From a virus, in IMG/VR virus record IMGVR_UViG_3300035070_001292, positions 1 through 38,416 of that record: 38,416 nt of DNA; one strand, given 5' to 3'. Shown here one piece after another: positions 1-17,701 of the stretch. Below the pieces are notes generated by a model, which had not been told where the DNA came from, did no database searches, and saw only the letters and a program-made list of their open reading frames with translations. The position numbers were made by a program, and so were the translations under genes. Every line of letters starts with the position of its first letter. Position 1 is the stretch's first letter.

Positions 1-90
1 AGCGTAGACCTTAGATGTTCCGTTTTGTAGTGTTTCAAACTTAACATTAAGTTTTAAACCACCTTCTTTTCTATGAGTACCCCATGAGTG
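1..90 (-). other. Minus-strand coding-like fragment at left edge
   Basis: All three plus frames hit a stop within the first 30 bases. One minus frame is open from about position 147 to the edge and reads, near the edge, HSWGTHRKEGGLKLNVKF, which has protein-like composition. It is loosely reminiscent of DDE transposase cores of the W-x-x-(R/K)-K-x-G-x-(I/L)-K-L type, but this is too short to assign. The same minus frame between 91 and 147 runs antisense to real amidotransferase codons, so only the part left of about 90 is likely genuine. Joining the two window ends as a circle does not extend it: the frame meets TAA after three codons. Confidence 0.3.
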
Positions 91-91
91 G

Positions 92-1135
92 TTGCGCAGT
101 GAAGATTGGAGTAGCTTCAAGAAACCTAAGATGCGACTGTTGCTAGGTCATAATCGGTACGCGACTCAGGGGATGGTCAACCTTAAGAATGCCCACCCAT
201 TTGTACACAATAAGATTGTTGGTGTGCATAACGGCACACTTAACGACCGAAAACAGTTGCTAGATAGCAGGAAATTTGAGGTAGATAGTGATAATATCTA
301 TCACCACATTAGTAAGAAAGGTTTGAAAGATTTTGTAGATAATAGTTCAAACGGTAGTTATTGCCTAGCTTGGGTTGATGGTCACACGAAGACCTTCAAC
401 ATGCTAAGAAACTACCAAAGACCAATGTATATGGCTAGAGGTCTTGGTAAGTCTTGTACATTCTTTGCCTCTGAAGAATGGATGCTTGAGGTTGCCTTCG
501 CTAAGAATTCGTACATTGGCGATGCACCTGCTGAGTTAGAAACTAATAAGTTATACCAAATCAAACTCGATGGAGTTGGTTTGGTCAATGGTGATTCACA
601 TGGGCAAGAGTTTAAGTACACTTACAATTACACAAAACCACGAGCTGTAACCTTTAACACAACAACTATTGTAGGGAAGCTTAGGAGTTTTTTCTACGCT
701 GGCGAGGTGAAGAGTCAGCGTGGTGATTTTCTCTTCACCAATGGTAGTTGTAATGGTGCAACTGTTCGTGTAGTTTTTAAGGGCGAACACTCATTAAAGC
801 GTAAGCTATTGAGTAGCAGCGCTACAACCGAATTTACTGGGTCTGTACTCTACATTATGAGGGTGAATGGTGTTAGTGTACCAGTTATTGATGGAGAAAG
901 TATTGAAGCTAAACCGAAAGTTAGTGTGACTAAAATGGTCAGTGGTTTACTAATGACAGAGCTGGAGTTCAACAGAGCTACCAGTGGTGGTTGTGCTTGG
1001 TGTACAGGCTATTGTGACTTTAACAAGCACAGCCACTTAGTTTTGTTTGACCAAGACAGGAAAGACTTCTTGTGTCATACCTGTAATACAAAAGAAAACC
1101 GTAAATTTTTTATTGCTAATGAGGAATGGGTATGA
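92..1135 (+). CDS. Class II glutamine amidotransferase domain protein, 5'-truncated
   Basis: Ntn-type glutaminase domain that would release ammonia from glutamine for the neighbouring ligases. Visible motifs, numbered from the TTG at 92, are GHNRYATQG (19-27, equivalent to the GlmS RWATHG motif), AHPFVHN and GVHNGTL (about 34-49) and SDNIYHHI (about 66-73). Homologues have some 60-70 residues before the first motif, beginning with the catalytic N-terminal Cys. Here an in-frame TGA lies at 74-76, and upstream DNA is not coding on this strand, so the nucleophile is absent. The TTG start is nominal. The C-terminus carries two Cys pairs (CAWC and CHTC, about residues 300-330) that could form a zinc ribbon. 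The gene overlaps the following ligase. The family is clear, but as read it should lack glutaminase activity. It is either a remnant or cut by a wrong assembly join. Confidence 0.85.
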   Translation: MRSEDWSSFKKPKMRLLLGHNRYATQGMVNLKNAHPFVHNKIVGVHNGTLNDRKQLLDSRKFEVDSDNIYHHISKKGLKDFVDNSSNGSYCLAWVDGHTKTFNMLRNYQRPMYMARGLGKSCTFFASEEWMLEVAFAKNSYIGDAPAELETNKLYQIKLDGVGLVNGDSHGQEFKYTYNYTKPRAVTFNTTTIVGKLRSFFYAGEVKSQRGDFLFTNGSCNGATVRVVFKGEHSLKRKLLSSSATTEFTGSVLYIMRVNGVSVPVIDGESIEAKPKVSVTKMVSGLLMTELEFNRATSGGCAWCTGYCDFNKHSHLVLFDQDRKDFLCHTCNTKENRKFFIANEEWV

Positions 1136-1962
1136 AAACTAGATTGAAACTTGGTTGTGACCCTGAAGTTTTCCTTCGTAAGAATGGTCGTAAGACTTTC
1201 ACCAGCGCTGTGGGGTTTAGTACAGGGACTAAGGAATCACCTCAAAAACTTAAAAAAGGCGGTTTACAAGTAGATGGAATGGCTTTGGAATTTAATATAA
1301 AGCCAGCGACGACTAAAGACGCTTGGGTTGGTAATATAAAATCTGTAATGGATGAGATGAAAGAGTGGACAGGTTCTTACGATGTGGTAGCAACACCAAC
1401 TGCACACTTCACCAAGAAGCATCTGGAGGCACAACCAGAGTGTGCAACTGAGCTTGGGTGTAACCCAGACTTTAATGCCTGGCGTGATTCAAGGGCGAAC
1501 CCAACCCCTAATGCAACTAATGTGAACTTCCGTACTGGTGCAGGTCATATACACTTTGGTTGGTGTGAGGGTGTAGACCCACACCACCCAGCACACTTAG
1601 CCACTTGCGAACTCTTAGTTAAGAGTTTAGATGTAACACTAGGCTTTCTATGTACTAAGTTTGACAAAGATGTTTTGCGCTCAAGTTTATATGGGAAGCC
1701 AGGAGCCTACCGACCAAAGCCATACGGTTGTGAGTATAGAGTGCCAAGTAATGCTTGGCTTCGTGACGAGGCAACTATAGCTTGGGTTTATGATGTATGC
1801 AAAAGAGTGTTTCAGTTACTTTGTAGAGGTTATATAATCAGTGACCTCTTCAATGAATCCGAGGTTTACTATGTGTTTTCAAACAGAAACATATATAGTT
1901 ATAGTCACAGAAAGATGGAATCTCTTGTAAGAAGACTTAATATACCACAACCACCACTGTAG
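1132..1962 (+). CDS. Phage COOH-NH2 ligase (phiEco32 type 2, glutamine-synthetase fold)
   Basis: Predicted ATP-dependent carboxylate-amine ligase of about 276 residues. It has the family pattern: an N-terminal GCDPEVFL strand with the metal-binding Glu, GLQVDGMALEFN (second acidic strand), GAGHIHFGW (His-rich metal/ATP strand), and a late basic stretch ending CEYRVPSNAWL. These match the COOH-NH2 ligase type 2 family described for phage phiEco32. The substrate is unknown; by analogy it would join an amino group, or ammonia from the adjacent amidotransferase, to a carboxylate. ATG at 1126 is possible, but GAGG at 1121-1124 is better spaced for ATG 1132. The start overlaps the amidotransferase stop, indicating translational coupling. 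No ATP-grasp gene is in the window. Confidence 0.85.
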   Translation: MKTRLKLGCDPEVFLRKNGRKTFTSAVGFSTGTKESPQKLKKGGLQVDGMALEFNIKPATTKDAWVGNIKSVMDEMKEWTGSYDVVATPTAHFTKKHLEAQPECATELGCNPDFNAWRDSRANPTPNATNVNFRTGAGHIHFGWCEGVDPHHPAHLATCELLVKSLDVTLGFLCTKFDKDVLRSSLYGKPGAYRPKPYGCEYRVPSNAWLRDEATIAWVYDVCKRVFQLLCRGYIISDLFNESEVYYVFSNRNIYSYSHRKMESLVRRLNIPQPPL

Positions 1963-1970
1963 AGGTTTTT

Positions 1971-2489
1971 ATGTACGATTGTGTGGATTATGCACACAGG
2001 GATTTGTGCAACTCATTCATGTGGGTTAACAACTCTGTGTTGTATATATTTCAAGTTTGGGGGGAATTCATGGCGACTGGTGTTAACAAGGATGGGGAGT
2101 TTGTTGATTTTAATGTTAACAATGTTTTACTAAGGACACCCACTGTTGGTTATGCCATAAATCGTTATGGGTGTTATGAGTATTTAGTAAGGTTGAATAG
2201 AGTGCGTGGATGTTATAAGCGTGGTGTTTGCGCACACAACACTCCTGGGCTACACGAATCAAACCGAGCATTGGTGTGTGAATCCTTAGAAAATACACCT
2301 ATAACTAAGGACTACTTGGTTGAAGCACTACAAACTAGGGATTGTGTGGTTGGTGGTGTGTTCTTAGTTAAGATGGACGGCACAGTACACTACAAAGGGT
2401 GCGCTGTTGGTGTGTTTATAGAAGGTTCTTTCAAAATGAAGCGTGGTAAGAAATACCTGAAAGATTTAATTGAGGGTTTGTTGCTATGA
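1971..2489 (+). CDS. Unrecognised protein between two amidoligase genes
   Basis: A 172-residue protein I do not recognise. It starts at ATG 1971 behind AGAGG (1961-1965), eight bases after the ligase stop, and its stop overlaps the next start as ATGA. It is rich in Cys, Tyr and Val, with a central segment containing GCYEYLVRLNRVRGCYKRG and a basic C-terminal tail (KMKRGKKYLKDL). No signal peptide or convincing membrane helix is seen. Its position inside the cluster suggests a role in the same pathway, such as an accessory subunit, acceptor protein or substrate, but this is inference only. Confidence 0.75.
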   Translation: MYDCVDYAHRDLCNSFMWVNNSVLYIFQVWGEFMATGVNKDGEFVDFNVNNVLLRTPTVGYAINRYGCYEYLVRLNRVRGCYKRGVCAHNTPGLHESNRALVCESLENTPITKDYLVEALQTRDCVVGGVFLVKMDGTVHYKGCAVGVFIEGSFKMKRGKKYLKDLIEGLLL

Positions 2490-3262
2490 GTGGTTTAGTT
2501 TGTAGAAAGACAACTTGTAAAAAACAAACATTTGGTGTTGAGGTGGAGGTGGAGGGTCGTAACATAGACAGTGTATATTGCTCTTTCTGGGATAAGGTTG
2601 TTGACCACTCACTAAGGGGTGAAAGTTGTGAGTTTGTACTCAAAGAAGCTAGTAGTATGTCTTACGCTAGTCGGGCTATACAGGCATTGAAAGAGCATTT
2701 AGTTAATGGCACTGTCTCACCATCCATAAGAACATCAGTCCACATTCATTTGAATGTCCAGCACATGACTTACTTGCAGATTATGAACATCATTACAGTG
2801 TACTTTGCACTTGAAAATGTGTTTATGAGCTGGTGTGGTGTAAAGAGGGAGGGTAATCCGTTTTGCCTACGCAACCAAGATTCCGAGGAGCAGTTACTAA
2901 CACTTATCAGTGGTGCTAAGTCTAGTAACTTTAATAGATTGGAAAATGGCTTTAATCGTTATGCAAGTTTGAATTTGCAAGCCATCTTCTCTAAAGGTTC
3001 CTTAGAGTTTAGGGGTATGCCATTACCTACAGATTTAGATGACATACTAATTGGTATGGATGTCGTTCGTCGTATCAAAAAGTTTGCTAGGAAGTTTAAG
3101 AACCCAAAGGAGGTTGCTAAACAGTTAGCTAAAGGTCATGTACAATTTGCTAAGGATGCGTTTGGTGTGCATTACGACACATTTGATAACGGTCAGGTTG
3201 AACAGAATATGGCTACATGTAGTGTGTTTGTTAACGACTTAGCTTATTGTAGGGTGTGGTAG
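2486..3262 (+). CDS. Amidoligase (Amidoligase_2-like)
   Basis: A second glutamine-synthetase-fold ligase of 258 residues. Diagnostic strands are FGVEVEVEG near residue 16 (paired Glu residues for Mg-ATP), a Glu-containing CEFVLKEA strand near 50, TSVHIHLNV near 82 (His-x-His-x-Asn strand), and RYASLNLQ followed by GSLEFRGMP near 160-180, where Arg binds phosphate and Glu closes the metal site. This arrangement matches the Amidoligase_2 family. It should form an amide bond with ATP; the substrate is unknown. Translation is coupled to the previous gene by ATGA. Two different ligases beside an amidotransferase and a cyclotransferase-like enzyme strongly suggest one pathway. Confidence 0.82.
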   Translation: MSGLVCRKTTCKKQTFGVEVEVEGRNIDSVYCSFWDKVVDHSLRGESCEFVLKEASSMSYASRAIQALKEHLVNGTVSPSIRTSVHIHLNVQHMTYLQIMNIITVYFALENVFMSWCGVKREGNPFCLRNQDSEEQLLTLISGAKSSNFNRLENGFNRYASLNLQAIFSKGSLEFRGMPLPTDLDDILIGMDVVRRIKKFARKFKNPKEVAKQLAKGHVQFAKDAFGVHYDTFDNGQVEQNMATCSVFVNDLAYCRVW

Positions 3263-3329
3263 CCCAATGTGATGCTAGAGCCGGTAATTTTTGCTAGAAA
3301 AATTTTCAACCAATTAGAGGTTTTGTTAT
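3263..3329 (+). promoter_or_regulatory. Intergenic gap with AT-only hairpin and GCTAGA repeat
   Basis: A 67-bp gap, large for this operon. It holds a perfect 7-bp hairpin, AATTTTT (3286-3292) with AAAAATT (3298-3304), around a GCTAG loop. The hexamer GCTAGA occurs twice (from 3274 and 3293). The stem is too AT-rich and lacks a U-run for a standard terminator, so it may be an operator or promoter site. AGAGG (3316-3320) is the ribosome binding site of the next gene. Confidence 0.3.
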
Positions 3330-3674
3330 ATGAATAGTTGTTTTTTCTATGGCACACTTAAACGAGGTCATTACAATAACGATAGGTTTGCAGATAAATT
3401 AAAGTTTGTTTGCACTGGCACTGTTATTGACCACTCACTTGTTAGTGAGAATAAATACTACCCACACGCTATCGAACAGGATGGTGGGTCAATCAATGGT
3501 GAGGTGTTTCAATTAGATGATGAAGCACTAGCGAGAATTAGCTTGATGGAGCTTGGGGCTGGTTATAAGATTAAGAAGGTTCCTGTACGGACTGAGCATG
3601 GCTTTTTGGAGTGCTTAATGTACTACTCAGACGACCAAGAGTTGAAAAACTTACCAACATATAGTACGTTTTGA
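3330..3674 (+). CDS. Gamma-glutamylcyclotransferase (AIG2)-like protein
   Basis: A 114-residue protein of the GGCT/AIG2 fold. It opens with FFYGTLKRGHYNN, the YGTL(K/R)xG substrate-loop motif, has the INGEVFQLDDEALARI strand-helix, and carries an acidic residue in the MELGAGYKIKKVPV segment where the catalytic Glu is expected. GGCT enzymes cyclise gamma-glutamyl groups to 5-oxoproline and release the amine. In amidoligase clusters such a protein is predicted to reverse or trim gamma-glutamyl amide products. ATG 3330 follows AGAGG at suitable spacing. The exact substrate is unknown. Confidence 0.85.
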   Translation: MNSCFFYGTLKRGHYNNDRFADKLKFVCTGTVIDHSLVSENKYYPHAIEQDGGSINGEVFQLDDEALARISLMELGAGYKIKKVPVRTEHGFLECLMYYSDDQELKNLPTYSTF

Positions 3675-3681
3675 GGTGACT

Positions 3682-4119
3682 ATGCTTAAAGTTAAAAAAT
3701 TAGTTGACAAAGCTGTTGTTCCAGAGTATGCTACTCCAGGTGCAGCAGGTATGGACTTAGTTGCTACCAGCGTTGATTATAAAGTTAGTGGTACTTACGA
3801 TGTGATACAGTATGTAGAGTATGGAACAGGACTAGCTTTTGAAATACCAGAAGGTTATGTTGGGTTACTGTTTCCACGGTCAAGTGTAAGCAACACTGAT
3901 TTAATGCTAGCTAATAGTGTTGGCGTTATAGACTCTGACTATCGTGGTGAGGTAAAGCTTCGCTTTCGTGAGGTTGGTGTTTTAGGTTCAATTTATAAGG
4001 TTGGTGACCGTGTAGGTCAAATTGTGTTTGTACCATCCATAAACTTACCTGTAACTGTTGTGGGTACACTGAGTGACAGTGATCGTGGTGAAGGTGGGTT
4101 TGGTAGCACAGGGGCTTGA
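3682..4119 (+). CDS. dut: dUTP diphosphatase (trimeric dUTPase)
   Basis: Hydrolyses dUTP to dUMP and pyrophosphate, limiting uracil in DNA and supplying the thymidylate synthase encoded next. All five family motifs are present in order: PGAAGMDL, PRSSVS, GVIDSDYRGEV (uracil-binding hairpin and catalytic Asp), GDRVGQIVF, and the C-terminal P-loop-like RGEGGFGSTG. The length of 145 residues is normal. GTG at 3676 is possible, but GAGGTG (3673-3678) spaces better to ATG 3682. The stop overlaps the ribosome-binding region of the next gene. Confidence 0.95.
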   Translation: MLKVKKLVDKAVVPEYATPGAAGMDLVATSVDYKVSGTYDVIQYVEYGTGLAFEIPEGYVGLLFPRSSVSNTDLMLANSVGVIDSDYRGEVKLRFREVGVLGSIYKVGDRVGQIVFVPSINLPVTVVGTLSDSDRGEGGFGSTGA

Positions 4120-4121
4120 CG

Positions 4122-4964
4122 ATGCAAACATACTTAGATTTGCTACAAGATGTAATGGATAATGGTGAGTATTTACAGAACAGGACTGGTGTTGCCACTA
4201 AGTCAGTGTTTGGCAGGCAACTTAGGTTTGACTTGTCGGAAGGCTTTCCTGCTGTAACGACTAAGAAGCTTGCTTTTCATGCTGTTAAAAGTGAGTTGCT
4301 GTGGATGCTGAGTGGTTCTTCTTGTGTAGATGATTTACGAGCTATACAATATGGCGAAGATAATCGCTATAACCCTGACAAACGAACTGTGTGGGACGAT
4401 AACTACGAAGTGCAAGGTAGGGCATTAGGTTATACTGACGGGCAGCTAGGGCCTGTATACGGCGCACAATGGCGTGGTAGAGCAAACCACTTCACTGACC
4501 AGATTAGTGCAGCTATTGAACAAATCAAGTCTGGGTCAAACTCTCGTAGAATTATAGTGAGTAGTTGGGATGTTGCTAGTATTGACAGAATGGCACTGCC
4601 ACCATGCCACTTAATGTTCCAATTTAAAGTGGTAAGGAATAAGCTATGTTGCCTAGTATATTTACGCTCCAATGATTTGTTCTTAGGTGCTCCTTTTAAC
4701 ATTGCGTCATACGCACTACTCACTCACATGGTTGCTCAAGTGTGTGAGTTAGAGGTTGGTGAGCTTATTTACACAATAGGGGATGCCCACATTTATGAAA
4801 ACCATTTTGAAGTGGTTGAGAGGCAACTTAGTCGCACTCCATTAAACAAGCCTAAGTTAATGTTAAATGGTGTGGTTGATTGTATTGATGATTTCGTGGT
4901 GGAAGATATTAATTTAGTCCACTATGATTCTTATGGTGTGTTAAGTGCTAGTATGGTGGTGTAG
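4122..4964 (+). CDS. thyA: Thymidylate synthase (T4 Td-like ThyA)
   Basis: Methylates dUMP to dTMP with methylenetetrahydrofolate. Key motifs are RTGVATKSVFG (phosphate-binding Arg), FPAVTTKKL, TVWDDNYEVQ then GQLGPVYGAQWR, SRRIIVSSW, LPPCHLMFQF (catalytic Cys about residue 162), and RSNDLFLGAPFNIASY. The Asn in PFN corresponds to the dUMP-selecting Asn of ThyA, whereas dCMP hydroxymethylases have Asp there, so a dUMP enzyme is favoured. The WDDNYE segment is close to T4 Td. The coding region is uninterrupted, unlike intron-bearing T4 td. TTG at 4116 is in frame, but ATG 4122 behind AGGGG is preferred. Confidence 0.95.
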   Translation: MQTYLDLLQDVMDNGEYLQNRTGVATKSVFGRQLRFDLSEGFPAVTTKKLAFHAVKSELLWMLSGSSCVDDLRAIQYGEDNRYNPDKRTVWDDNYEVQGRALGYTDGQLGPVYGAQWRGRANHFTDQISAAIEQIKSGSNSRRIIVSSWDVASIDRMALPPCHLMFQFKVVRNKLCCLVYLRSNDLFLGAPFNIASYALLTHMVAQVCELEVGELIYTIGDAHIYENHFEVVERQLSRTPLNKPKLMLNGVVDCIDDFVVEDINLVHYDSYGVLSASMVV

Positions 4965-4978
4965 CTGAGTGGCGAGAG

Positions 4979-5083
4979 ATGAGCGTGTTAGTAGTCATGT
5001 TGATGATATTGGCAGGTCTTGTTCCTTATGACGAATACAGGCTTGCAACAGAAGATGAAATTGAACAGTGGCTGACACGCTGA
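4979..5083 (+). CDS. Small ORF, 34 residues, hydrophobic N-terminus
   Basis: ATG 4979 lies 15 bases after the thyA stop behind GGCGAGAG. The product begins MSVLVVMLMILAGL, a short hydrophobic stretch that could be a membrane segment or signal anchor, then turns acidic (TEDEIEQWLTR). I do not recognise it. A perfect 12-bp inverted repeat begins seven bases into the ORF and ends nine bases after it, which is unusual for a coding region. Confidence 0.45.
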   Translation: MSVLVVMLMILAGLVPYDEYRLATEDEIEQWLTR

Positions 5084-5092
5084 CTACTAACA
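4986..5092. repeat. 12-bp perfect inverted repeat bracketing the small ORF
   Basis: TGTTAGTAGTCA at 4986-4997 is the exact reverse complement of TGACTACTAACA at 5081-5092, separated by 83 bases. The outward halves contain GTTAG and CTAAC cores like those of the attC sites downstream, but in the opposite arrangement, as at the two edges of a cassette. It could be a long-range mRNA stem that hides the small ORF, or a scar or boundary of the inserted region. Only the symmetry itself is certain. Confidence 0.6.
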
Positions 5093-5111
5093 TGAGGCAG
5101 TGGATTATATT

Positions 5112-5507
5112 ATGGAAACGCAAATCTTCGAAAACTTCAAAGAATTCAAGAAAAGAGAAGACAAATCCATTAATGGGGTATCGCCAGAGTTCGCTGAACG
5201 ATTCCCTAACTATAAAGTGGATAACGAAACGAACTCAGGTTGTTGGGAGTGCAATCACTGCGATCATTGTGTGAACTGCGATTTTTGTAATGACTGCAAG
5301 AGATGCAATTACTGCCGACACTGCAAGAACTGCAAGAACTGTAGATTGTGCGAGAGCTGCAATTACTGCGAGAACTGTGTGGACTGCGATTACTGCAAGA
5401 ACTGCATAGACTGCGAAAGCTGCGATCACTGCGAGTTATGCACATCATATAAATTTATTTGGAAAAGATGTAACGCACTGGGCCGCAATAACAGACCCGA
5501 TAGTTAG
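5112..5507 (+). CDS. Cys-triplet repeat protein (23 Cys at exact three-residue period)
   Basis: A 131-residue protein. Residues 1-40 are ordinary and charged. From about residue 44 (GCWECNHCDHCVNC) to about residue 110 (CESCDHCELC), Cys recurs every third residue 23 times without a break, and the two residues between are mostly Asn, Asp, Lys, Glu, Tyr and His. The triplets hint at a 15-residue higher-order unit. Such a chain could bind many metal ions, form disulfides, or wind as a solenoid. No signal peptide is seen, so cytoplasmic metal binding is more plausible than disulfides (inference). ATG 5112 is preferred, with GTG 5100 as an alternative. Its 3' end lies within the first attC-like site, as in a gene cassette. 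Confidence 0.8.
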   Translation: METQIFENFKEFKKREDKSINGVSPEFAERFPNYKVDNETNSGCWECNHCDHCVNCDFCNDCKRCNYCRHCKNCKNCRLCESCNYCENCVDCDYCKNCIDCESCDHCELCTSYKFIWKRCNALGRNNRPDS

Positions 5508-5553
5508 TAAAGTTAAGCCGCGCCCCAGTGTCCGCTCGAATGAGTTGTTAGTT
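5471..5553 (+). repeat. attC-like site 1
   Basis: Outer cores are TAAC (5471-5474) and GTTAGTT (5547-5553). CACTGGG (5476-5482) pairs perfectly with CCCAGTG (5524-5530), and after one mismatch CGC (5484-5486) pairs with GCG (5520-5522). The right arm contains TCCGCTCGAATGAGTT just before the core. The left arm is shorter than usual for attC and lies inside the end of the Cys-repeat gene, so this unit is atypical. Confidence 0.5.
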
Positions 5554-5568
5554 TTCAGGAGTTAATTT

Positions 5569-5877
5569 ATGATAATACTGAGATTACCAAAACCAACCTA
5601 CCCATTAATTGACAAGTTAAAGGCGCGTATAGAAGCAGCCTACAGTTTGGCAGACAAAGTTCCGGACCACTATGATGGTGACGATCTGCGAGTTCTGTTA
5701 AGAAGTATAGCCCATGAGCTGTTGGGAGAGGCGGACGCACTTGAGGATATTCGCTCTGCAAACGCTCAACTTCGAGATTGTGCCGAGGGATATATGGCGA
5801 GATGCGACGAGCTTGAGGCGCAGCTTGAAACTGCCGTAGCCGATGCAGGCAGAGCACGAAATTTCTGGTGGCAGTGA
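5569..5877 (+). CDS. Cassette gene: small protein with C-terminal coiled coil
   Basis: A 102-residue protein starting at ATG 5569 behind AGGAG (5557-5561). The N-terminus reads LPKPTYPLIDKLKARIEAAY. The C-terminal half (IRSANAQLRDCAEGYMARCD and onward) has heptad-like spacing suggesting a coiled coil. This resembles small phage and cassette proteins with C-terminal coiled coils, but I cannot name a family. The stop at 5875-5877 directly precedes the next attC-like site. Confidence 0.75.
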   Translation: MIILRLPKPTYPLIDKLKARIEAAYSLADKVPDHYDGDDLRVLLRSIAHELLGEADALEDIRSANAQLRDCAEGYMARCDELEAQLETAVADAGRARNFWWQ

Positions 5878-5955
5878 ATATAACGCAGAGCTATGGGGCG
5901 AGCCGTTAGGCGAGTCCAGTGAGTGAAACGAACGGCTTTCAGCGAGTAGTTAGAG
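5878..5955 (+). repeat. attC-like site 2
   Basis: TAAC (5881-5884) and GTTAGAG (5949-5955) form the outer cores. AGCCGTT (5901-5907) pairs exactly with AACGGCT (5931-5937), giving an inner 7-bp stem. The right arm CTTTCAGCGAGTA precedes the core. It starts immediately after the preceding stop codon and ends nine bases before the next ATG, the normal layout of a cassette boundary. Confidence 0.5.
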
Positions 5956-5963
5956 GGCATTTT

Positions 5964-6191
5964 ATGGTAGCGGCACGATGGATAGGTAATACAGAAGATG
6001 AAACTGGCGAGGCGATTTTCATGATTGAGGGTGTTGAATACAGGCTCGCCCTAGACAGCTTTGCTAAGTTCCGGACGATAGAAACGATGCTGGAAGTAAC
6101 TTTTAAGCAGGGCAAACAGTTTGCGGCGCAGGCTATACGCAGCCACCTTGACCGCGCGATGAGACAGGAGGAGCTGCAACATGCCCTCTAA
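5964..6191 (+). CDS. Cassette gene: 75-residue hypothetical protein
   Basis: ATG 5964 sits behind AGAGGG (5952-5957). The longer reading from GTG 5919 would start inside attC-like site 2 and is rejected. The protein has an N-terminal MVAARWIGNTEDETGEAIF stretch, then a helical, basic C-terminus (FAAQAIRSHLDRAMRQEELQ). No family is recognised. Its stop codon TAA (6189-6191) forms part of the left core of the next site, typical of integron cassettes. Confidence 0.7.
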   Translation: MVAARWIGNTEDETGEAIFMIEGVEYRLALDSFAKFRTIETMLEVTFKQGKQFAAQAIRSHLDRAMRQEELQHAL

Positions 6192-6237
6192 CCTTGTGGT
6201 AAGCGGCGGGACGTCCGACTTGAGCGACAAGTTAGGT
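6186..6237 (+). repeat. attC-like site 3 (best paired outer arms)
   Basis: CTCTAAC (6186-6192) and GTTAGGT (6231-6237) are the outer cores. CTAAC plus TTGT (6194-6197) pair with ACAA (6227-6230) plus GTTAG, nine pairs interrupted by one unpaired C at 6193. An extrahelical base next to this position is a known feature of folded attC sites. The right arm CTTGAGCGACAA and a TCCG just before it match the other sites. Total length is 52 bp. Confidence 0.65.
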
Positions 6238-6249
6238 GCCAAGCTGAAT

Positions 6250-6417
6250 GTGACGGCTGAGATAAAGGAAATATTTGATGAGGCTCTTGCATACCAGAAT
6301 TGCAGAGACGCATGTATTAAAGGTGTTTTCTCAAACCGGAGAGCCGTATACCACGCGAAGCGATACATACAAACATCACGAAAATTAAATTACACACAAA
6401 ACAATAACAGAGGCTGA
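6250..6417 (+). CDS. Cassette gene: 55-residue hypothetical protein
   Basis: A short basic protein containing EIKEIFDEALAYQNCRDAC and HAKRYIQTSRKLNY. The open frame extends back to 6181, but that part lies in attC-like site 3, so a start after 6237 is needed. GTG 6250 is the first reasonable choice (CTG 6244 is possible), though its ribosome binding site is weak (AGGTG 6233-6237). The stop is one base before the next ATG, so both ORFs probably share a cassette and are co-translated. No function is recognised. Confidence 0.5.
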   Translation: MTAEIKEIFDEALAYQNCRDACIKGVFSNRRAVYHAKRYIQTSRKLNYTQNNNRG

Positions 6418-6418
6418 T

Positions 6419-6664
6419 ATGGGCGACATGGGCGAATTGTTCAATGACATGAAGGAAAACACGAAAGCGCACCGAGCTGAAATGCTCAGGAAGGCGAACA
6501 CCGAAGGCTGGAAGCGCCACACCGAGTGGCATTACTCGCGAACGTTCAACGGCAAGCGCATGGACTGGTGGCCGAGTGGCGGAAAGGCTCAATACGATGG
6601 CCGGATGATCTACGGACACCACAAGGTAAACGCCAAGATCGCCGCGCTGCTCAATGCAACCTAA
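6419..6664 (+). CDS. Cassette gene: small phage-type protein with HYSRTFNGKRMDWWPSGGK motif
   Basis: An 81-residue protein with ATG 6419 behind AGAGG. The central stretch TEWHYSRTFNGKRMDWWPS followed by GGKAQYDGRM matches a small protein type I recall from phages and prophages; its function is unknown. It is basic and aromatic, so nucleic-acid binding is possible. The stop TAA (6662-6664) is inside the left core of attC-like site 4. Confidence 0.8.
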   Translation: MGDMGELFNDMKENTKAHRAEMLRKANTEGWKRHTEWHYSRTFNGKRMDWWPSGGKAQYDGRMIYGHHKVNAKIAALLNAT

Positions 6665-6715
6665 CGCAAAAATCACGGGCGGCGGTAGCCGTCCGAGTTG
6701 CGCGACTTGTTATAC
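6659..6715 (+). repeat. attC-like site 4
   Basis: ACCTAAC (6659-6665) fits the RYYYAAC consensus and GTTATAC (6709-6715) is close to GTTRRRY. A central hairpin, CGGGCGGC (6676-6683) with GCCGTCCG (6688-6695), has eight pairs (one G-T) around a GGTA loop. GCAA (6666-6669) can pair with TTGC (6698-6701). At 57 bp it has the length of a classic 59-base element, and it begins at the stop of the preceding ORF. Confidence 0.65.
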
Positions 6716-6738
6716 GGCTACAAACTACGGAGCTACTT

Positions 6739-6930
6739 ATGTACGACCATTTTAAAAAGCGGCCATACCCTGACAATGACGGGAATACGCACGATATTGA
6801 GTTTTTGCCATGCCCGTTTTGTGGTGACGACCCGCACGTAATGCCGAAGGGTAACAGCCATACGAAAAAAAAACGATCAGTTACGGTTAAGTGCAATACA
6901 TGCCGCATTGAACGAAGTGAGTCGGCTTGA
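6739..6930 (+). CDS. Cassette gene: Lar-like zinc-ribbon protein
   Basis: A 63-residue protein, ATG 6739 behind ACGGAG. The core LPCPFCGDDPHV, then VTVKCNTCRIE, is the CPxC...CxxC zinc-ribbon layout of Lar-type (restriction alleviation) proteins common in phages and prophages. Lar of Rac modulates type I restriction-modification, but most relatives are uncharacterised, so anti-restriction is only a hypothesis. A longer reading from 6526 would cross attC-like site 4 and is rejected. Confidence 0.8.
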   Translation: MYDHFKKRPYPDNDGNTHDIEFLPCPFCGDDPHVMPKGNSHTKKKRSVTVKCNTCRIERSESA

Positions 6931-6944
6931 ACGACTTGTTATGC
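6905..6944 (+). repeat. attC-like site 5 (degenerate left arm)
   Basis: The right arm CTTGAACGACTTGTTATGC (6926-6944) matches attC consensus well. The left side, within the end of the preceding gene, has GCAT (6905-6908), which pairs only with ATGC, and no clear TAAC core. It may be a truncated or recombined site. Confidence 0.45.
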
Positions 6945-6972
6945 ACCATTTGCGTGACGCCACGAAAATGGT
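6945..6972. repeat. Strong hairpin directly after attC-like site 5
   Basis: ACCATTT (6945-6951) pairs with AAATGGT (6966-6972), and CGTG (6953-6956) with CACG (6961-6964), giving eleven pairs with one internal G-A mismatch and an ACGC loop. No T-run follows on either strand, so it is not a standard terminator. It could be an attC-like fold in its own right or an mRNA stabiliser. Confidence 0.55.
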
Positions 6973-7009
6973 TTAGGTAAAAAAGATTAACCTTAGAGGT
7001 AAACCAAAA

Positions 7010-7189
7010 ATGGATATACGTGACGAGATTGCAGTGGCGGTACTGCCAGCAATATACAAAGAGTATTTTGATGAGTTCCGCAATAGCGGCGGAAAGATTG
7101 ACGAAAAATGGCGCGAAGGATTGGCGCTAGATGCCTACATGCTGGCTGATGCGATGATTGCAATGCGCGGAGCCAAGATTGGTGCATAA
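7010..7189 (+). CDS. Cassette gene: 59-residue phage-type hypothetical protein
   Basis: ATG 7010 follows AGAGG at about 10 bases. The protein begins MDIRDEIAVAVLPAIYKEYF and ends DAYMLADAMIAMRGAKIGA. Small proteins with an N-terminal IRDEIA stretch and a C-terminal AYxxADAMI(A/K)xR stretch are familiar in tailed-phage genomes, with no known function. It is wholly alpha-helical in character. Its stop TAA (7187-7189) overlaps the left core of the next attC-like site. Confidence 0.8.
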   Translation: MDIRDEIAVAVLPAIYKEYFDEFRNSGGKIDEKWREGLALDAYMLADAMIAMRGAKIGA

Positions 7190-7263
7190 CCATTGAGTTA
7201 AAGGGCGCAAGCCGAAGGCGCAGCGTCCAGCCCGTAAGGGCGACTTTGAACGAATTGTTATAC
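7184..7263 (+). repeat. attC-like site 6
   Basis: GCATAAC (7184-7190) and GTTATAC (7257-7263) are the cores. The right arm CTTTGAACGAATT is close to textbook attC, and the left arm CATTGAGTTAAAG is its imperfect complement. The centre contains GCCC-GTAA-GGGC (7230-7241) and other GC-rich short stems. At 80 bp it is the longest well-formed unit after site 1. The next ORF starts 15 bases after the core with its own GAGG. Confidence 0.65.
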
Positions 7264-7277
7264 ACCGAGGATATGTT

Positions 7278-7475
7278 ATGAAAAGTTGTAGCACATGCGT
7301 ATTTTTTGACGCACCAAAAGCTGGTGATGCTTGTGGAACTTGCCAGTACCCTGTACCTGAATATCTGCGAATTGGTGGATGCCCGTACATAAGCATGCCT
7401 GATTACAGCGGGGGAAACTGTGCAGTACACAAGAGCAGAGCTGAGTTAATTGAGGCTGCGAAAGAAGGTGTATAA
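7278..7475 (+). CDS. Cassette gene: Cys-rich 65-residue protein
   Basis: ATG 7278 with GAGG upstream (7267-7270). The N-terminal part has CSTCVFF, then GDACGTCQYPVP, then GGCPY and NCAVH: about seven Cys in two CxxC pairs plus singles, suggesting a small metal-binding domain. A charged helix follows (RAELIEAAKEG). I do not know the family, although small proteins beginning CxxCxFF are common in phages. Its stop codon is followed by TAAC/GTTA remnants of a further site. Confidence 0.75.
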   Translation: MKSCSTCVFFDAPKAGDACGTCQYPVPEYLRIGGCPYISMPDYSGGNCAVHKSRAELIEAAKEGV

Positions 7476-7491
7476 CATGATTTATACGTTA
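7470..7491 (+). repeat. Possible collapsed attC remnant at array end
   Basis: GTATAAC (7470-7476) overlaps the stop of the last cassette ORF, exactly as in the complete sites. GTTA follows at 7488-7491 with only 11 bases between. The normal right arm is missing. This may be the cut end of the array, marking the return to phage sequence before the primase-helicase start at 7515. Confidence 0.35.
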
Positions 7492-7514
7492 AATGTTTTG
7501 ACTGGGGTTTAAAT

Positions 7515-9179
7515 ATGGGTAAGTGTGTATTAAAGATTAATCACGATGATTGTGGGTCTAGCGATGGCTTACAAGTGTTTGCACAAGATGACGGCTCGCT
7601 AGATGGCTTCTGTTACGCTTGTAGTACGTTTGTATCCAACCCACTTGGTGATGGTAAAAGGTTGTCTGATATACCACCTGAGCAACGTCTGTGTAAGTCT
7701 GACGAAGAGGTTCGAGAGGAGTTAGATGACATAGCTTCCTGTACAACTGTTGACTTACCTACGCGAAGGTTAAGAGCTAATGTACTTGAACAGTTTGGTG
7801 TTAAGGTTGGTGTATCTAGCAGGGATGGTAAGACTCCAACTGTAGTGTTCTTCCCTTACTATAAGGACGGAGTGCTTACAGGTTATAAAGCTCGTTCACT
7901 AGAGGCTAAAAGGTTTTGGGCTGTTGGTAGTATTAAAGATGCTGACTTGTTTGGTTGGGAACAAGCTAAACAGTCAGGAGCTTCGCGCCTAATCATTACT
8001 GAGGGCGAGTTTGATGCTTGTGCCTTAACCAAAGTGTTTGAGTTGTACGAAGAGGAGAAGTATAAACATACAATACCTGCTGTAGTAAGCTTACCATCAG
8101 GTGTGAGTAGTGTTGAGAAGGTGTTAGGTAAGCACTTGCAAGATATTAACAGATTGTTTAGAGATGTTAGCTTCGCTTTTGACGATGATGAGCCAGGCCG
8201 TGAGGCTCTTGTAAAGGCTTGTGCCTTGCTACCACTAGCCACAACTATTAATCTGCCACTTAAAGATGCTAACGAGTGTTTGATTAAAGGTAAAGGTAAA
8301 GAGGCTTATCAAGCAGCTAAGTGGAAAGCTGTTGTACCTAAGAACTCCCGCCTAATATCACTAGACTCTGTTTGGGAGTCAGCTAAAGAGCCAGCTAAAT
8401 TTGGTGTTAGTTGGCCTTGGAAGCACATTACAGAGGTTACGAGAGGCATTAGGACTGGTGAGACAATTTACATAGGTGCTGCTCAGAAGATGGGTAAGTC
8501 TGAGGTTGTTAACTCGCTAGCTGACCACTTGGTTCGTGAACATAACTGGAAGATTCTGTTAGCTAAACCAGAGGAGTCTAACGCTAAGACAGCTAAACTA
8601 CTTGCAGGCAAGGCTGTACAAGCTAGGTTCCATGACCCTCGTGTGGAGTTTGACCTAGAGAAGTTTGAAAAAGCTGGTGAGATGTTGCTTGGTGATAAGA
8701 TTTATATGCTTAACTTATATCAGCATTTAGGTTGGTCATCACTTAAGACAGATATTATAGTAGCTTCTCAGTTAGGTGTTAAGGCTGTGTTCATTGACCC
8801 AATCACTAACCTAACGAATGGTATGAACTCTGCTGAAGCTAACACTAAGTTGCAAGAGATTGCACAAGACTTAGCAGCTATGGCTAAAGATTTAGATATT
8901 GTAATCTTCATCTTCTGCCACCTCCGTAACCCAGAGAGTGGACTAGATCATACAAGAGGTGGTAAGGTTTTAACCTCTCAGTTTGCTGGTAGTAGGGCTA
9001 TGGGGAGGTCTTGTAATTATATGTTTGGTATTGAAGGTAACAAAGATCCAGAGCTTCCAGAAGACCAACGTAACATTCGACACTTAGTTCTACTAGATGA
9101 TCGTGAGTATGGTGAGTCTGGTAGTTTTAGTTTATATTGGGATAAGGATACAACAATGTTTAATGAGGTTGTGGTATGA
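7515..9179 (+). CDS. Primase-helicase (T7 gp4-like, DnaB-type)
   Basis: A 554-residue bifunctional replication protein. The N-terminus has a zinc-ribbon pattern (C4, H10, C13, C33, C36). The TOPRIM primase core shows ITEGEFDACAL (catalytic Glu) and FAFDDDEPGREA. The RecA-like helicase has Walker A GAAQKMGKS (321-329), Walker B VFIDP (Asp 428) and a sensor stretch IFIFCHLRNP. It should unwind DNA at the fork and make primers. The start has a modest GGGG ribosome binding site. The stop overlaps the sigma gene as ATGA, so the two are co-translated. Confidence 0.95.
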   Translation: MGKCVLKINHDDCGSSDGLQVFAQDDGSLDGFCYACSTFVSNPLGDGKRLSDIPPEQRLCKSDEEVREELDDIASCTTVDLPTRRLRANVLEQFGVKVGVSSRDGKTPTVVFFPYYKDGVLTGYKARSLEAKRFWAVGSIKDADLFGWEQAKQSGASRLIITEGEFDACALTKVFELYEEEKYKHTIPAVVSLPSGVSSVEKVLGKHLQDINRLFRDVSFAFDDDEPGREALVKACALLPLATTINLPLKDANECLIKGKGKEAYQAAKWKAVVPKNSRLISLDSVWESAKEPAKFGVSWPWKHITEVTRGIRTGETIYIGAAQKMGKSEVVNSLADHLVREHNWKILLAKPEESNAKTAKLLAGKAVQARFHDPRVEFDLEKFEKAGEMLLGDKIYMLNLYQHLGWSSLKTDIIVASQLGVKAVFIDPITNLTNGMNSAEANTKLQEIAQDLAAMAKDLDIVIFIFCHLRNPESGLDHTRGGKVLTSQFAGSRAMGRSCNYMFGIEGNKDPELPEDQRNIRHLVLLDDREYGESGSFSLYWDKDTTMFNEVVV

Positions 9180-9667
9180 CACGAGATGAGTTGATTAGTG
9201 AGCATTACCAAATGCACTATGGTAGTTTGATTAAGTTCTTCTCTTACAGGCATTACGGTAATGAGCAGGATGCTGAGGATATTGTACACGAAGCTTACGC
9301 TCGCGCCTTAAAGTATTTTGATTCTTACGATGCAGAAAGAACGAAGTTCACCACTTGGTTTGGTAAGATTATTGTCAACTGTGAACGTGACTTATTGAGA
9401 GCTAGGTTGCGTAATGGTTCAACTGAAGAGTTCGACGAAGAGTTGTATGACCCAGTGTTTGAAGACCACGCATTGCGACAGGATTTTATGAATCTTCGTG
9501 GTCATATTGACAGATGCAAACAAGAGGTCAGAGAAGTCTTAACTCTATACTACATTTATCAATATAGCCTAAGCGATATTGCCTCTTTACTTCCAATGTT
9601 TAAGTATAAGCAGATTGATAATATGGTTAAGGACTTTCGTAATAGAGTGATTAAGAAACTTAGTTGA
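9176..9667 (+). CDS. ECF-type RNA polymerase sigma factor
   Basis: A 163-residue protein with two sigma domains. Region 2 (about residues 15-80) includes NEQDAEDIVHEAYARALKYF and FTTWFGKIIVNCERDLLRAR, typical of sigma-70/ECF region 2. Region 4 (about 115-160) has REVLTLYYIYQYSLSDIASL followed by a recognition-helix-like segment. Phage phiEco32 gp36 is a known ECF-like phage sigma factor that directs host RNA polymerase to viral promoters; this gene probably does the same for the structural operon (inference). Translational coupling to the helicase makes it an early/middle product. Confidence 0.88.
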   Translation: MTRDELISEHYQMHYGSLIKFFSYRHYGNEQDAEDIVHEAYARALKYFDSYDAERTKFTTWFGKIIVNCERDLLRARLRNGSTEEFDEELYDPVFEDHALRQDFMNLRGHIDRCKQEVREVLTLYYIYQYSLSDIASLLPMFKYKQIDNMVKDFRNRVIKKLS

Positions 9668-9674
9668 GGTTGGT

Positions 9675-9920
9675 ATGCGTAAACCATATAAAAACGGGTC
9701 AAGCTATATTGTACTTATTGTTGACTGTGGTATATTAGGGAGTCAGGAATTAACAGTTCACTATGACTGGGAGACAGGCTCTCCTGGCGGTTTTGATGAA
9801 CCACCTACACACCCAGACCTAAGTGTTACGTCAGTAACTATCTACGGCTCCGAGGTTAACTTGTGCGACAGTGCTTTAGACGAGATTACAGATTATGTTA
9901 AAGAGGAGGTTAACTTTTGA
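9675..9920 (+). CDS. Conserved phage hypothetical protein
   Basis: An 81-residue acidic protein, ATG 9675 behind GAGG. The layout (beta strand LTVHYDWETGSPGGFDEPP, then VTSVTIYGSEVNL, then an acidic helix LDEITDYVKEEV) matches a small protein often seen in phage replication regions. Its function is unknown. It lies between the sigma and polymerase genes in the same direction, with a short gap on each side. Confidence 0.8.
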   Translation: MRKPYKNGSSYIVLIVDCGILGSQELTVHYDWETGSPGGFDEPPTHPDLSVTSVTIYGSEVNLCDSALDEITDYVKEEVNF

Positions 9921-9947
9921 AGGTGTTAATTGGTTGTGAGTGTGTTT

Positions 9948-10115
9948 ATGAGTTTTAATTGTAGCTCTTATAATGTGGAGTCAAACCCTAAACCTTGTCC
10001 ACACCACTTAGTAGTTGACTTGTGTGGGCAGTGTATTAGGGAGCAGCGTGAATGCAGTGGAGGGGTCAACAGTGCGCATGTGTGTAAGGAGCTGAAGAGT
10101 GGTATTGGACGGTAA
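9948..10115 (+). CDS. Small Cys-rich ORF, hypothetical
   Basis: A 55-residue reading frame from ATG 9948 (TTG 9930 is an alternative). It contains KPCPHHLVVDLCGQCIREQR, a CPHH-CxxC arrangement that could bind zinc. The ribosome binding site is weak. Just upstream, a 13-codon frame (TTG 9917) encodes KVLIGCECVYEF, resembling the start of a phage methyltransferase-like protein family, so the gap may contain gene debris. Function unknown; gene status moderate. Confidence 0.45.
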   Translation: MSFNCSSYNVESNPKPCPHHLVVDLCGQCIREQRECSGGVNSAHVCKELKSGIGR

Positions 10116-10182
10116 GCATTATCCGTATGTTCGACATCGCTTGATACAGTAACCAGCACTCAGTTTTTGGTTAGAGGTTATT

Positions 10183-12033
10183 ATGAAGATTAGTGTGTTT
10201 GACTTAGAGTGTGACGGGTTTAACCCAACTAAAATACATGTGCTAAGTCACTATACTGATGGTGTTATGGAAAGCACAGATGACTATAATAAAATGCGTT
10301 CTTGGATGAATGAGACGCAGGTAATGGTCGCACATAATTGTGTAAGGTTTGATCTACCTGTCCTGAGACGCTTATTGGGTGTTGATACAAAATGCAAAGT
10401 TGTTGACACACTTGCCTTGTCGTGGTACTTATTCCCTCAACGAGTAAAGCATGGTCTTGAAAGTTGGGGCGAAGATTTTGGTATTAAGAAACCTATTGTA
10501 GAGGATTGGGCTACACTATCTTACGAAGAGTATAAGCATCGTTGTGAAGAAGATGTTAAGATTAACGTAAGGTTGTGGAAGAGGTGTTGGGAATATCTAC
10601 TGAAGTTATACGGCTCTGACGTAGAGGTTTGGAAGTTTATAGATTATGTAATGTTTAAGATGGAGTGTGCAGCTAAACAAGAGTTAGTTAAGTGGAAGCT
10701 TGATGTAGATAGGGCTACAAGACTGCTTGAAACACTAGAGCTTGTTAAGGAGGAGCGTACAATTGGTTTAGCAAATGTAATGCCTAAGCTACCTGTTTAC
10801 AAGGTTGTAAACAAACCTAAGAAGTTGTATAAAGTTAATGGTCAGTTAACTAGCTTAGGTGCTAGCTGGTTTAAATTGCTAGCAGAGTTAGGGTTTCCTG
10901 AGTCACACGAAGAGGTTGTACGAATAGTTAGTGGTTATGAAGAACCAAACCCAGGCTCCGTTAAGCAGGTTAAGGATTGGTTATATAGCTTAGGTTGGGT
11001 TCCTGAAACTTTTAGTTTCAATCGTGACAAAGTTACTGGTGAGGTGTCAAAAATACCACAGGTTAATGTTAAAGGCTCTGGTGTTTGTGAGAGCGTTAAG
11101 AAGTTATATGACAAAGAGCCTAGCCTAGAGTTGTTAGATGGTTTAGCAATCGTGTCACATAGAGTTGGTGTTGTTAAGGGCTTCTTGTCAAACGTAGATG
11201 AGCAAGGTTTTTTGCAAGCAAGGGTTGAAGGTTTAACAAACACACTACGGTTTAAACACTCTGTAATTGTTAACTTGCCTGGTGTTGACAAACCCTATGG
11301 TGAAGATATAAGAGGGTGCCTCATTACGCCAGATGGTTATGAGTTGGTTGGCTCTGATATGTCTTCGTTAGAAGATAGGACTAAGCAACATTATATGTGG
11401 GACTATGACCCAGAGTATGTAAGGGAGATGATGACTCCTGACTTTGACCCACACATTGACTTGGCGTTGTTTGCTAATGCACTAACAAAAGAGCAAGCTG
11501 ATGATTTTAAATCTGGTAATCACACTAAGGAGGTTAAGTCTGTTCGACATGTATACAAGCAAGTGAACTATGCCTGCGTGTACGGGGCTGGAGGGGCCAC
11601 TGTAGGCAGGGCCGCTGGCGTAGGTAAGGATGCTGGAGAACGTCTCGTAGAGGCTTACTGGAAGCGTAATTGGTCGGTTAAATCTGTAGCTGAGGCTCAA
11701 CGAGTTAAGACAGTGTTTGGGCAGATGTGGTTGTACAACCCAGTGTCTAAGTTCTGGTATAGCTTACGAGCTGAGAAGGATAGGTTTTCAACACTTAATC
11801 AAGGTACTGGTGTCTATTGCTTTGACACATGGTTGAAGCATGTTTATAATGGTGGTATGCCTATTTGTGGGCAGTTCCATGACGAGTTTATTGGTATTAT
11901 CAAGCTCGGCCTTCGTGAGAGGGCCGTTAATCACATTAACGAAGCCATGAGGTTAACTAATGAAGAGTTGAAGTTAAACAGAGAGTTAGGTTGTTCTATA
12001 CAGTTTGGTTGCAATTATTCGGAGATACATTAA
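10183..12033 (+). CDS. Family A DNA polymerase with 3'-5' exonuclease (T7 gp5-like)
   Basis: The replicative polymerase, 616 residues. The N-terminal DnaQ-like proofreading domain shows FDLECDG (D7, E9), AHNCVRFDLPVL (D57) and a late RCEEDVKIN (D124). Polymerase motif A is GSDMSSLED (D392), motif B RHVYKQVNYACVYG (R455, K459, Y463), and motif C FHDEF (H566-D567-E568). Tyr463 aligns with E. coli Phe762 and T7 Tyr526; Phe or Tyr there is generally found in lytic phages. ATG 10183 follows TTAGAGG. No intein is present. Confidence 0.95.
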   Translation: MKISVFDLECDGFNPTKIHVLSHYTDGVMESTDDYNKMRSWMNETQVMVAHNCVRFDLPVLRRLLGVDTKCKVVDTLALSWYLFPQRVKHGLESWGEDFGIKKPIVEDWATLSYEEYKHRCEEDVKINVRLWKRCWEYLLKLYGSDVEVWKFIDYVMFKMECAAKQELVKWKLDVDRATRLLETLELVKEERTIGLANVMPKLPVYKVVNKPKKLYKVNGQLTSLGASWFKLLAELGFPESHEEVVRIVSGYEEPNPGSVKQVKDWLYSLGWVPETFSFNRDKVTGEVSKIPQVNVKGSGVCESVKKLYDKEPSLELLDGLAIVSHRVGVVKGFLSNVDEQGFLQARVEGLTNTLRFKHSVIVNLPGVDKPYGEDIRGCLITPDGYELVGSDMSSLEDRTKQHYMWDYDPEYVREMMTPDFDPHIDLALFANALTKEQADDFKSGNHTKEVKSVRHVYKQVNYACVYGAGGATVGRAAGVGKDAGERLVEAYWKRNWSVKSVAEAQRVKTVFGQMWLYNPVSKFWYSLRAEKDRFSTLNQGTGVYCFDTWLKHVYNGGMPICGQFHDEFIGIIKLGLRERAVNHINEAMRLTNEELKLNRELGCSIQFGCNYSEIH

Positions 12034-12034
12034 T

Positions 12035-12718
12035 ATGTCACTCAATATTAAAGAAATGAAAAGTAGTGGTGGAAGCTCTAATCGTGCTGAGCCACTAGAG
12101 CCTGGTTCATATCCAGCTCGTGTTGTACAAATCATTGACCTTGGTGTGCAAGCAAGTCCACCAAACAGTGCCTACCCTAAACCACCACAACACATGATTA
12201 GTGTAACCTATGAGTTGTGTGATGAGTTCTTGAAGGATGAAGCTGGTGAGGATTTGAAAGATAAACCTCGTTGGGTTAGTGAAGACTTTAACCTAATGCC
12301 TCTTGACAAGGACTTGGCTACCTCCACTAAGCGTTATAAAGCATTAGACCCTAATGACACTTGTGACGGAGACATTACTCGGTTAATTGGTTGCTGTGGT
12401 ATGGTTAGTATTGTGCAACGCAAGTCTCGTGACGGTTTGAAAGTGTATAACAATGTAGCTGGTGTTGCACCAGTACGAGCTAAGGCCGCAGCAACAATGC
12501 CTGAGTTGGTTAATGTCGGTAAGGTGTTTGTTTTGTCTGAGCCAGACTTGGATGTGTTTAACTCCCTACCAGACTTCTTGAAAGAGAAGATTAAAGGTAA
12601 TTTGAAGTATCAGGGCAGTCCATTGCAGCGTTTGTTAGAAGGTGGGCAAGCTCCTATTAAAGAGTCAGCAACCAATGTTGTTGCTGAAACACAAGACGAT
12701 GATGATAGTTGGGGTTAA
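12035..12718 (+). CDS. Single-stranded DNA-binding protein
   Basis: A 227-residue protein translated one base after the polymerase stop (GGAG upstream of ATG 12035; the longer GTG-started frame overlaps the polymerase and is not needed). The core EPGSYPARVVQIIDLGVQ, then HMISVTYELCDEF, resembles the OB-fold of phage SSB-like proteins encoded beside T7-like polymerases. The C-terminus ends in the acidic aromatic tail DDDDSWG, typical for SSBs that recruit polymerase and helicase. The assignment rests on tail, context and pattern rather than a catalytic signature. Confidence 0.75.
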   Translation: MSLNIKEMKSSGGSSNRAEPLEPGSYPARVVQIIDLGVQASPPNSAYPKPPQHMISVTYELCDEFLKDEAGEDLKDKPRWVSEDFNLMPLDKDLATSTKRYKALDPNDTCDGDITRLIGCCGMVSIVQRKSRDGLKVYNNVAGVAPVRAKAAATMPELVNVGKVFVLSEPDLDVFNSLPDFLKEKIKGNLKYQGSPLQRLLEGGQAPIKESATNVVAETQDDDDSWG

Positions 12719-12721
12719 TAG

Positions 12722-13024
12722 ATGAGTAAATTAGTAGAGGTTGGCCAGTTTTACAAAGTTGCTAAGGATGACTTCAAGGAGGAGTTTGGCATTGGTAAGG
12801 GTGTTGTAGTGCTTGCTGTTGGTGAGGGTCTCTTCCCCATTAGTGAGACAGACCCATACCTGCGACGAGTGTACTTTGCCATTACACCTTTCGACAATGG
12901 CACTTTAGACCTTAACGAGAAGCCCATTGTAGTAGCTGCTGAAAGTTTAGAGTTCTTGTCTGACAAAGAGCAAGAAGACTTACAAGCTATGCTTAAGGTG
13001 TTCGAGGATAGCTTACCTCAATGA
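12722..13024 (+). CDS. Hypothetical replication-operon protein
   Basis: A 100-residue acidic protein, ATG 12722 three bases after the SSB stop. It begins MSKLVEVGQFYKVAKDDF with a beta-rich centre and an acidic helical C-terminus (DKEQEDLQAMLKVFEDSL). No family is recognised. The stop overlaps the exonuclease start (ATGA), implying coordinated production with SSB and exonuclease. Confidence 0.75.
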   Translation: MSKLVEVGQFYKVAKDDFKEEFGIGKGVVVLAVGEGLFPISETDPYLRRVYFAITPFDNGTLDLNEKPIVVAAESLEFLSDKEQEDLQAMLKVFEDSLPQ

Positions 13025-13890: not shown

Positions 13891-14062
13891 TTGTTGTGGA
13901 GATATTTTCTACAGCCGTTACCCAGGTGAGTTTAGGCATTGTGATTGTAAGCAATCTGCTGTTGACGAGACGGAGTTTTATGCTAGGCTCTTTGGAAGTT
14001 TAACCCCTGTTGGACGATTATATGAGGTGAGTGACGATGAGAGGGGAGTTAGTAAAGAATGA
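13859..14062 (+). CDS. Small Cys-rich phage protein (DUF7695-like)
   Basis: A 67-residue protein with ATG 13859 behind GAGGG inside the end of the exonuclease gene. The core CCGDIFYSRYPGEFRHCDC followed by a VDE/F-Y-x-R stretch resembles a widespread phage small protein with C-GD-x-I-x-S, H-x-F-x-x-C-x-C and VDGG-x-x-Y-x-R spacing. Possible zinc-binding fold; function unknown. The following HNH gene begins within its 3' end. Confidence 0.7.
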   Translation: MKFNPTLYKANCCGDIFYSRYPGEFRHCDCKQSAVDETEFYARLFGSLTPVGRLYEVSDDERGVSKE

Positions 14063-15864: not shown

Positions 15865-15869
15865 GTTCT

Positions 15870-17687: not shown

Positions 17688-17701
17688 AATTTATTTATAG
17701 C

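Follow-up and report, generated by a model that had tools for sequence, protein, structure and literature searches.

Clusters of attC sites lacking an integrase (CALINs) were described in virulent bacteriophages in 2023 (Qi et al., PMC9892861; PH101, TJE1, P12002L, ctTUS972 and others), where they accompany small uncharacterised genes. The presence of such an array in a phage is therefore not in itself new, and the earlier note on the DNA studied here had rightly pointed out that phage attC sites were on record. Here we describe a CALIN in the IMG/VR virus record IMGVR_UViG_3300035070_001292 (positions 1 to 38,416, the entire 38,416 bases being referred to as the window), situated at 4986-7476 between the thymidylate synthase (thyA) and primase-helicase genes of a podovirus. 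What it adds to the published phage CALINs is a sister phage in which the array has been replaced, and a predominantly inverted polarity of phage cassette genes relative to their attC sites. Very probably its cassettes are exchanged at attC by an integron integrase from the infected host.

The attC sites of virulent phages, including those of PH101 and TJE1, recombine with attI1 through IntI1 (PMC9892861). The window shares with those CALINs a cargo of anti-restriction type (methyltransferases in the published arrays, a Lar-like protein here) but represents a different phage lineage, and one with a near-identical sister. With bacterial CALINs and sedentary chromosomal integrons it has in common the attC architecture, the cassette size and the complementarity of cassette ends; it differs in possessing neither intI nor a classical attI, and in having its genes antisense rather than sense to attC. 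A covariance model built from the attC sites of class 1 mobile integrons recognises the window sites, although intI1, the promoter Pc and resistance genes are all missing and the polarity is inverted. The insertion of cassettes at genomic attG sites (Loot et al. 2024, as cited in PMC12901181) would explain how cassettes could enter a genome without attI, a candidate junction being AATCATG|TT at 7475. No empty, array-free site of the window lineage was found.

The array and its attC sites

Small open reading frames (ORFs) on the + strand alternate in the window with imperfect palindromes ending in GTTRRRY-like cores, as the earlier note had proposed for positions 5471-7491. Two covariance models match only this array in the 38 kb: R1, made from 17 class 1 integron attC sites on plasmids, and R2, made from attC sites of the sister phage (L002) and three other phages and oriented like the genes; no window site was included in either. 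The R1 matches, all on the minus strand, were 7184-7263 (27.6 bits, E 4e-4 in a 135-kb search), 6659-6715 (20.1 bits) and 6868-6944 (18.3 bits), with no further match in the whole 38 kb up to E = 10. R2 matched 7184-7263 (53.4 bits), 6186-6237 (24.6 bits), 5878-5955 (24.2 bits) and, partially, 5511-5546 (12.9 bits), with no match outside the array. From this pattern we recognise four firm attC sites (5878-5957, 6184-6240, 6659-6715 and 7184-7263, the last being the best), each with the R''-L''-loop-L'-R' architecture and RYYYAAC / GTTRRRY ends, and two weak or degenerate ones (about 5469-5552, and 6868-6944, which is partly degenerate). All six lie within 2 kb and are assigned to the minus strand, in the case of 5878-5957 by homology to the other sites; a CALIN, taken as at least two close attC sites detected by covariance model, is thus present. 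Neither model found attC in 12 distant relatives of the phage, and Rfam gave no match. A home-made scan for R and L boxes proved useless (106 window hits against about 92 in shuffles), and the covariance models were used instead.

By comparison with the sister phage, the variable block is larger than had been supposed, extending from 4986 to 7472. It begins with a truncated attC, a remnant (CTGAGTGGCGAGAGATGAGCG..TGTTAGTA; 4964-4990) fused to the thyA stop codon, and ends with an R'' core only, the GTATAAC of the last cassette (7470-7476), which is joined to the conserved backbone ATGATTTATACGTTAAATG (boundary 7470-7494, minus strand). The earlier observation that the composition is unlike that of the flanks is borne out by a G+C content of 47.5%, all other windows of the same size in the contig having 39.0-43.7%; for the L002 array the values are 50.6% against 39.1-44.4%.

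Both ends of a real cassette derive from its own circular attC, so that the bases following G|TTRRRY on its left pair with those preceding RYYYAAC on its right. Among 13 units of the window and L002 the own-end pairing averaged 6.3/9, compared with 3.8/9 for other pairings, and none of 100,000 permutations reached the observed value, also when shuffling was confined to each phage (p about 1e-5). The units of the array behave as discrete, exchangeable cassettes.

No tyrosine recombinase (PF00589) was found in the window or L002, records which may be incomplete, nor in G002, G003, G004, G008, PH101 or ctTUS972, while the same search was positive in 14/14 control genomes; the earlier note had likewise seen no integron integrase. 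A complete integron, with intI beside attI, is not present, the only candidate for an attI- or attG-like end being at 7475 (..AATCATG|TT on the minus strand). Since the phage has no recombinase gene of its own, we infer that the enzyme would be the IntI of the host acting in trans. A different arrangement was seen in the IMG/VR contig G005, which holds three tyrosine recombinases and in which (L058, 1-2400) a Xer-like tyrosine recombinase is followed by three very strong class 1-type attC sites (45-72 bits).

A sister phage with a different array

A primase-helicase scan revealed one near-identical contig, L002 (42,181 bases), with flanks 96.3% (75-4985), 98.1% (7473-9944) and 97.0% (10080-19316) identical to the window. 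Window positions 4986-7472 are replaced in it by L002 8072-9958, and similarity between the two blocks is undetectable. The L002 block comprises six ORFs and five attC sites of its own (R1 scores of 42.5, 39.4, 32.8, 28.2 and 17.1 bits; E 1e-7 and 6e-7) besides a partial first attC. The array is clearly real, and clearly replaced in the sister phage, the kind of relative, with other cassettes at this locus, that the earlier note had advised looking for; with covariance matches obtained and the block not conserved, its reading is supported and largely right.

The right breakpoint falls at a TAAC core (window ..GTGTA|TAACATGATTTATACG, L002 ..AAACC|TAACATGATTTATACG). On the left, the beginning of one attC, CTGAGKGGCGAGAGATGAGCG, directly follows the thyA stop codon in both phages; more of this first site is retained in L002, its centre being lost in the window. 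Its presence in both indicates that an array already existed in their common ancestor, the contents having been replaced since. That two sister phages differ in their arrays at a single locus is direct comparative evidence of cassette swapping in a lytic phage lineage, and bears on the way in which small accessory (possibly anti-restriction) genes are renewed in phages.

Several points weigh against exchange by a host integrase. On the left, the junction does not have the form of a clean recombination point. Two of the six window attC sites are degenerate, the first attC is truncated and the last site consists of R'' only, and some of the array may thus have lost its mobility. In DNA folding alone, the window sites surpass shuffled sequences by a modest margin only (z -0.4 to -2.2). 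Furthermore, the difference from L002 could be a single homologous flank exchange with a third phage rather than many integrase events, and two genomes cannot tell these apart. The truncated, R''-only and degenerate sites would also fit a relic, in which cassettes entered once and their sites are decaying, the L002 difference reflecting homologous exchange of a hypervariable locus without any integrase here; flanks of 96-98% identity would support such an exchange. We regard a relic as unlikely, though it is the most serious of the alternatives: on the right the two phages diverge at the TAAC core, five of the L002 sites score strongly (R1 17-42 bits) and the cassettes have kept the complementarity of their own ends.

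Polarity of genes and attC sites

The phage attC sites, read on the gene strand, resemble the bottom strand of class 1 attC sites, the window GCATAACCATTGAGTTAAAGG...CTTTGAACGAATTGTTATAC being the reverse of an aadA-type site. R1 called the minus strand for the window, L002 and G004, whose genes are on the plus strand, and the plus strand for G002 and G003, whose genes are on the minus strand. In a canonical cassette the gene is sense to its own attC; in the window and L002 the genes are antisense, the reverse of the polarity assumed in the earlier note.

Polarity was scored for each interval between neighbouring attC sites by stop-adjacent ORF coverage, the attC strand being taken from R1; calling by the longest ORF was ambiguous in GC-rich contigs and was replaced by this measure together with a coding-potential score, which agrees on the polarity for phages. 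Phage intervals were antisense in 25 cases, sense in 5 and undecided in 9, against 17, 96 and 18, respectively, in bacteria, mostly Xanthomonadales (odds ratio 28, Fisher p 3e-12, intervals within one array not being independent). By contig, 15/16 bacterial arrays were mainly sense and 9/10 phage arrays mainly antisense (p 3e-5, with the window and L002 counted as two, though one lineage). Five extra contigs in the count are phages by their genes; G005, with its tyrosine recombinases and ambiguous GC-rich ORFs, was left out. A separate bacterial sample, drawn from 274 genomes of one class (Gammaproteobacteria) plus the metagenome-assembled genome (MAG) G014, gave 30 sense and 6 antisense intervals, all six antisense ones in G014, and 23:0 without it. 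G014 (Proteobacteria MAG SZAS-112) has one sense array (L170) and two antisense arrays located at contig starts (L079/L172 and L171). A phage origin for bacterial antisense cassettes found no support, there being no PHROG match among eight.

The published CALINs of PH101 (attC sites +, annotated genes -) and ctTUS972 (attC sites -, genes +) are also inverted but that of TJE1 is canonical, so that inversion is common in phages and not universal; P12002L gave no attC match. Qi et al. present the arrays of TJE1 and PH101 as typical of those in bacteria, without mention of polarity (PMC9892861), and we found no account of a predominantly inverted gene/attC polarity in phages in the accessible literature. 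The inversion cannot come from inserting ordinary bacterial cassettes backwards, because the orientation of gene to attC is fixed within a cassette. The inverted polarity suggests that simple borrowing from bacterial integrons does not account for phage cassettes, and bears on where cassettes are made.

The polarity was derived from a class 1 model, and the asymmetry of the L boxes might misreport the recombinogenic strand; alternatively the cassettes of the host's clade might also be inverted, the bacterial MAG G014 having antisense cassettes on two contigs. Such an artefact is improbable: bacterial arrays are sense by the same model (96:17, and 23:0 in Gammaproteobacteria without G014), the window array has its clean junction on the right, beside the primase gene, where minus-strand polarity places the insertion end, and in PH101 the bottom strands of the attC sites recombine better than the top in experiments (PMC9892861). 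That the locus is an ordinary hypervariable phage region whose repetitive extragenic palindromic-like or terminator hairpins mimic attC is scarcely credible, since, common as small uncharacterised genes between core genes are in phages and modest as the fold z-scores may be, the class 1-trained R1 is strong in L002 and matches only the array in the window, R1 finds the attC sites of two published phages and R2 those of a third, and terminators are not expected to give complementary cassette ends.

Proposed course of cassette exchange

Under exchange by a host integrase, the first cassette most likely entered near the thyA stop codon by way of a site resembling attI or attG; the IntI of the host would then add and remove cassettes during infections. 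An array-free sister would be expected to show thyA ..GTGTAACATGATTTATACG.. directly before the primase gene. The minus polarity of the attC sites would place the insertion end (G|TT) at about 7475 beside the primase gene, with the genes antisense to the attC sites and presumably read by phage transcription from left to right. In this polarity the recombinogenic attC strand would be the non-template strand. The bottom strand of attC recombines with about 1000-fold the efficiency of the top strand (PMC8946536), so that transcription or lagging-strand replication could promote exchange by exposing the bottom strand. The phage might also ferry cassettes, as the earlier note envisaged.

We put forward, tentatively and as less likely than not to be the full account, that phages maintain a cassette pool of their own, with genes built antisense to attC, and that unrelated phages trade these cassettes by way of integrases in the hosts they share. 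In a host integron the cassettes would stay silent; in a phage they would be read, their recombinogenic strand being the non-template one, exposed by transcription and replication.

Complete copies of the first L002 attC, 87-95% identical to it, occur in three other, unrelated phage contigs. Two of these, G002 and G004, are podoviruses whose tail genes are of other kinds; the third, the phage G003, encodes a different primase together with a photolyase and a Dda-type helicase. By exact match, the 26-base core of this shared site is absent from 84,980 bacterial and archaeal genomes. Two separate attC clusters (90377-92613 and 16951-18647) were noticed in the 94-kb phage contig G012, one of them carrying a DNA methyltransferase-like cassette (phrog_799).

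Cassette genes

All of the array ORFs are on the + strand. The first cassette (4987-5091; ends complementary 8/9) contains a 28-aa ORF (4997-5083) and is followed by a 131-aa ORF (5112-5507) with Cys-rich CxxC repeats, which runs into the degenerate attC and shows a weak match to the uncharacterised phrog_15341. Next are ORFs of 102 aa (5569-5877; no family match), 75 aa (5964-6191; stop codon overlapping the TAAC core, cassette ends 9/9 complementary) and 81 aa (6419-6664; no family match). The 63-aa product of 6739-6930 is similar to Lar restriction alleviation proteins (PF14354, E 2e-5; TIGR03655, E 1e-6), a similarity only, being below both curated cut-offs (25.2/28.6 bits and 28.7/39.6 bits). 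The 59-aa product of 7010-7189 is of phage type (phrog_2201, E 1e-7), and the last ORF (65 aa, 7278-7475) has no family match. In L002 the ORF at 8065-8370 is also Lar-like (phrog_599, E 4e-5; TIGR03655, E 9e-4, below the curated cut-off). These two cassettes thus weakly resemble Lar proteins, a lead towards a possible anti-restriction role for some of the cargo. Most cassette products have no family match, and some others match uncharacterised phage families. Annotated phages yielded no homologues of the ORFs at 7010 and 6739, scans of viral contigs with two cassette proteins returned only the sister's own copy or nothing, and PADLOC gave no defence match.

Genome setting

End repeats were not found in the 38,416-base contig, which encodes a portal-type connector, terminase, major head protein, DNA polymerase, primase-helicase, sigma factor and thymidylate synthase. 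In its primase-helicase the phage is nearest to Vibrio phages of the 1.235.O type (~60% identity; classed as Zobellviridae) and to Pseudomonas PA11-like phages; by gene matches, its primase-helicase, sigma factor, polymerase, terminase and portal are those of a Zobellviridae-type podovirus. The array is flanked on the left by thyA (4116-4964, +; 99.4% nucleotide identity with L002) and on the right by the DNA primase-helicase gene (7515-9179, +; 98.0%), both conserved.

Upstream, at 92-3674, is a cluster of genes for a glutamine amidotransferase, a COOH-NH2 ligase, an amidoligase and a gamma-glutamyl cyclotransferase, of which the first three kinds are also kept ahead of the primase gene in relatives. 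A 758-aa protein (17705-19978) with no PHROG match is encoded between the early and late regions, and a 1684-aa ORF (19993-25047) adjoins it.

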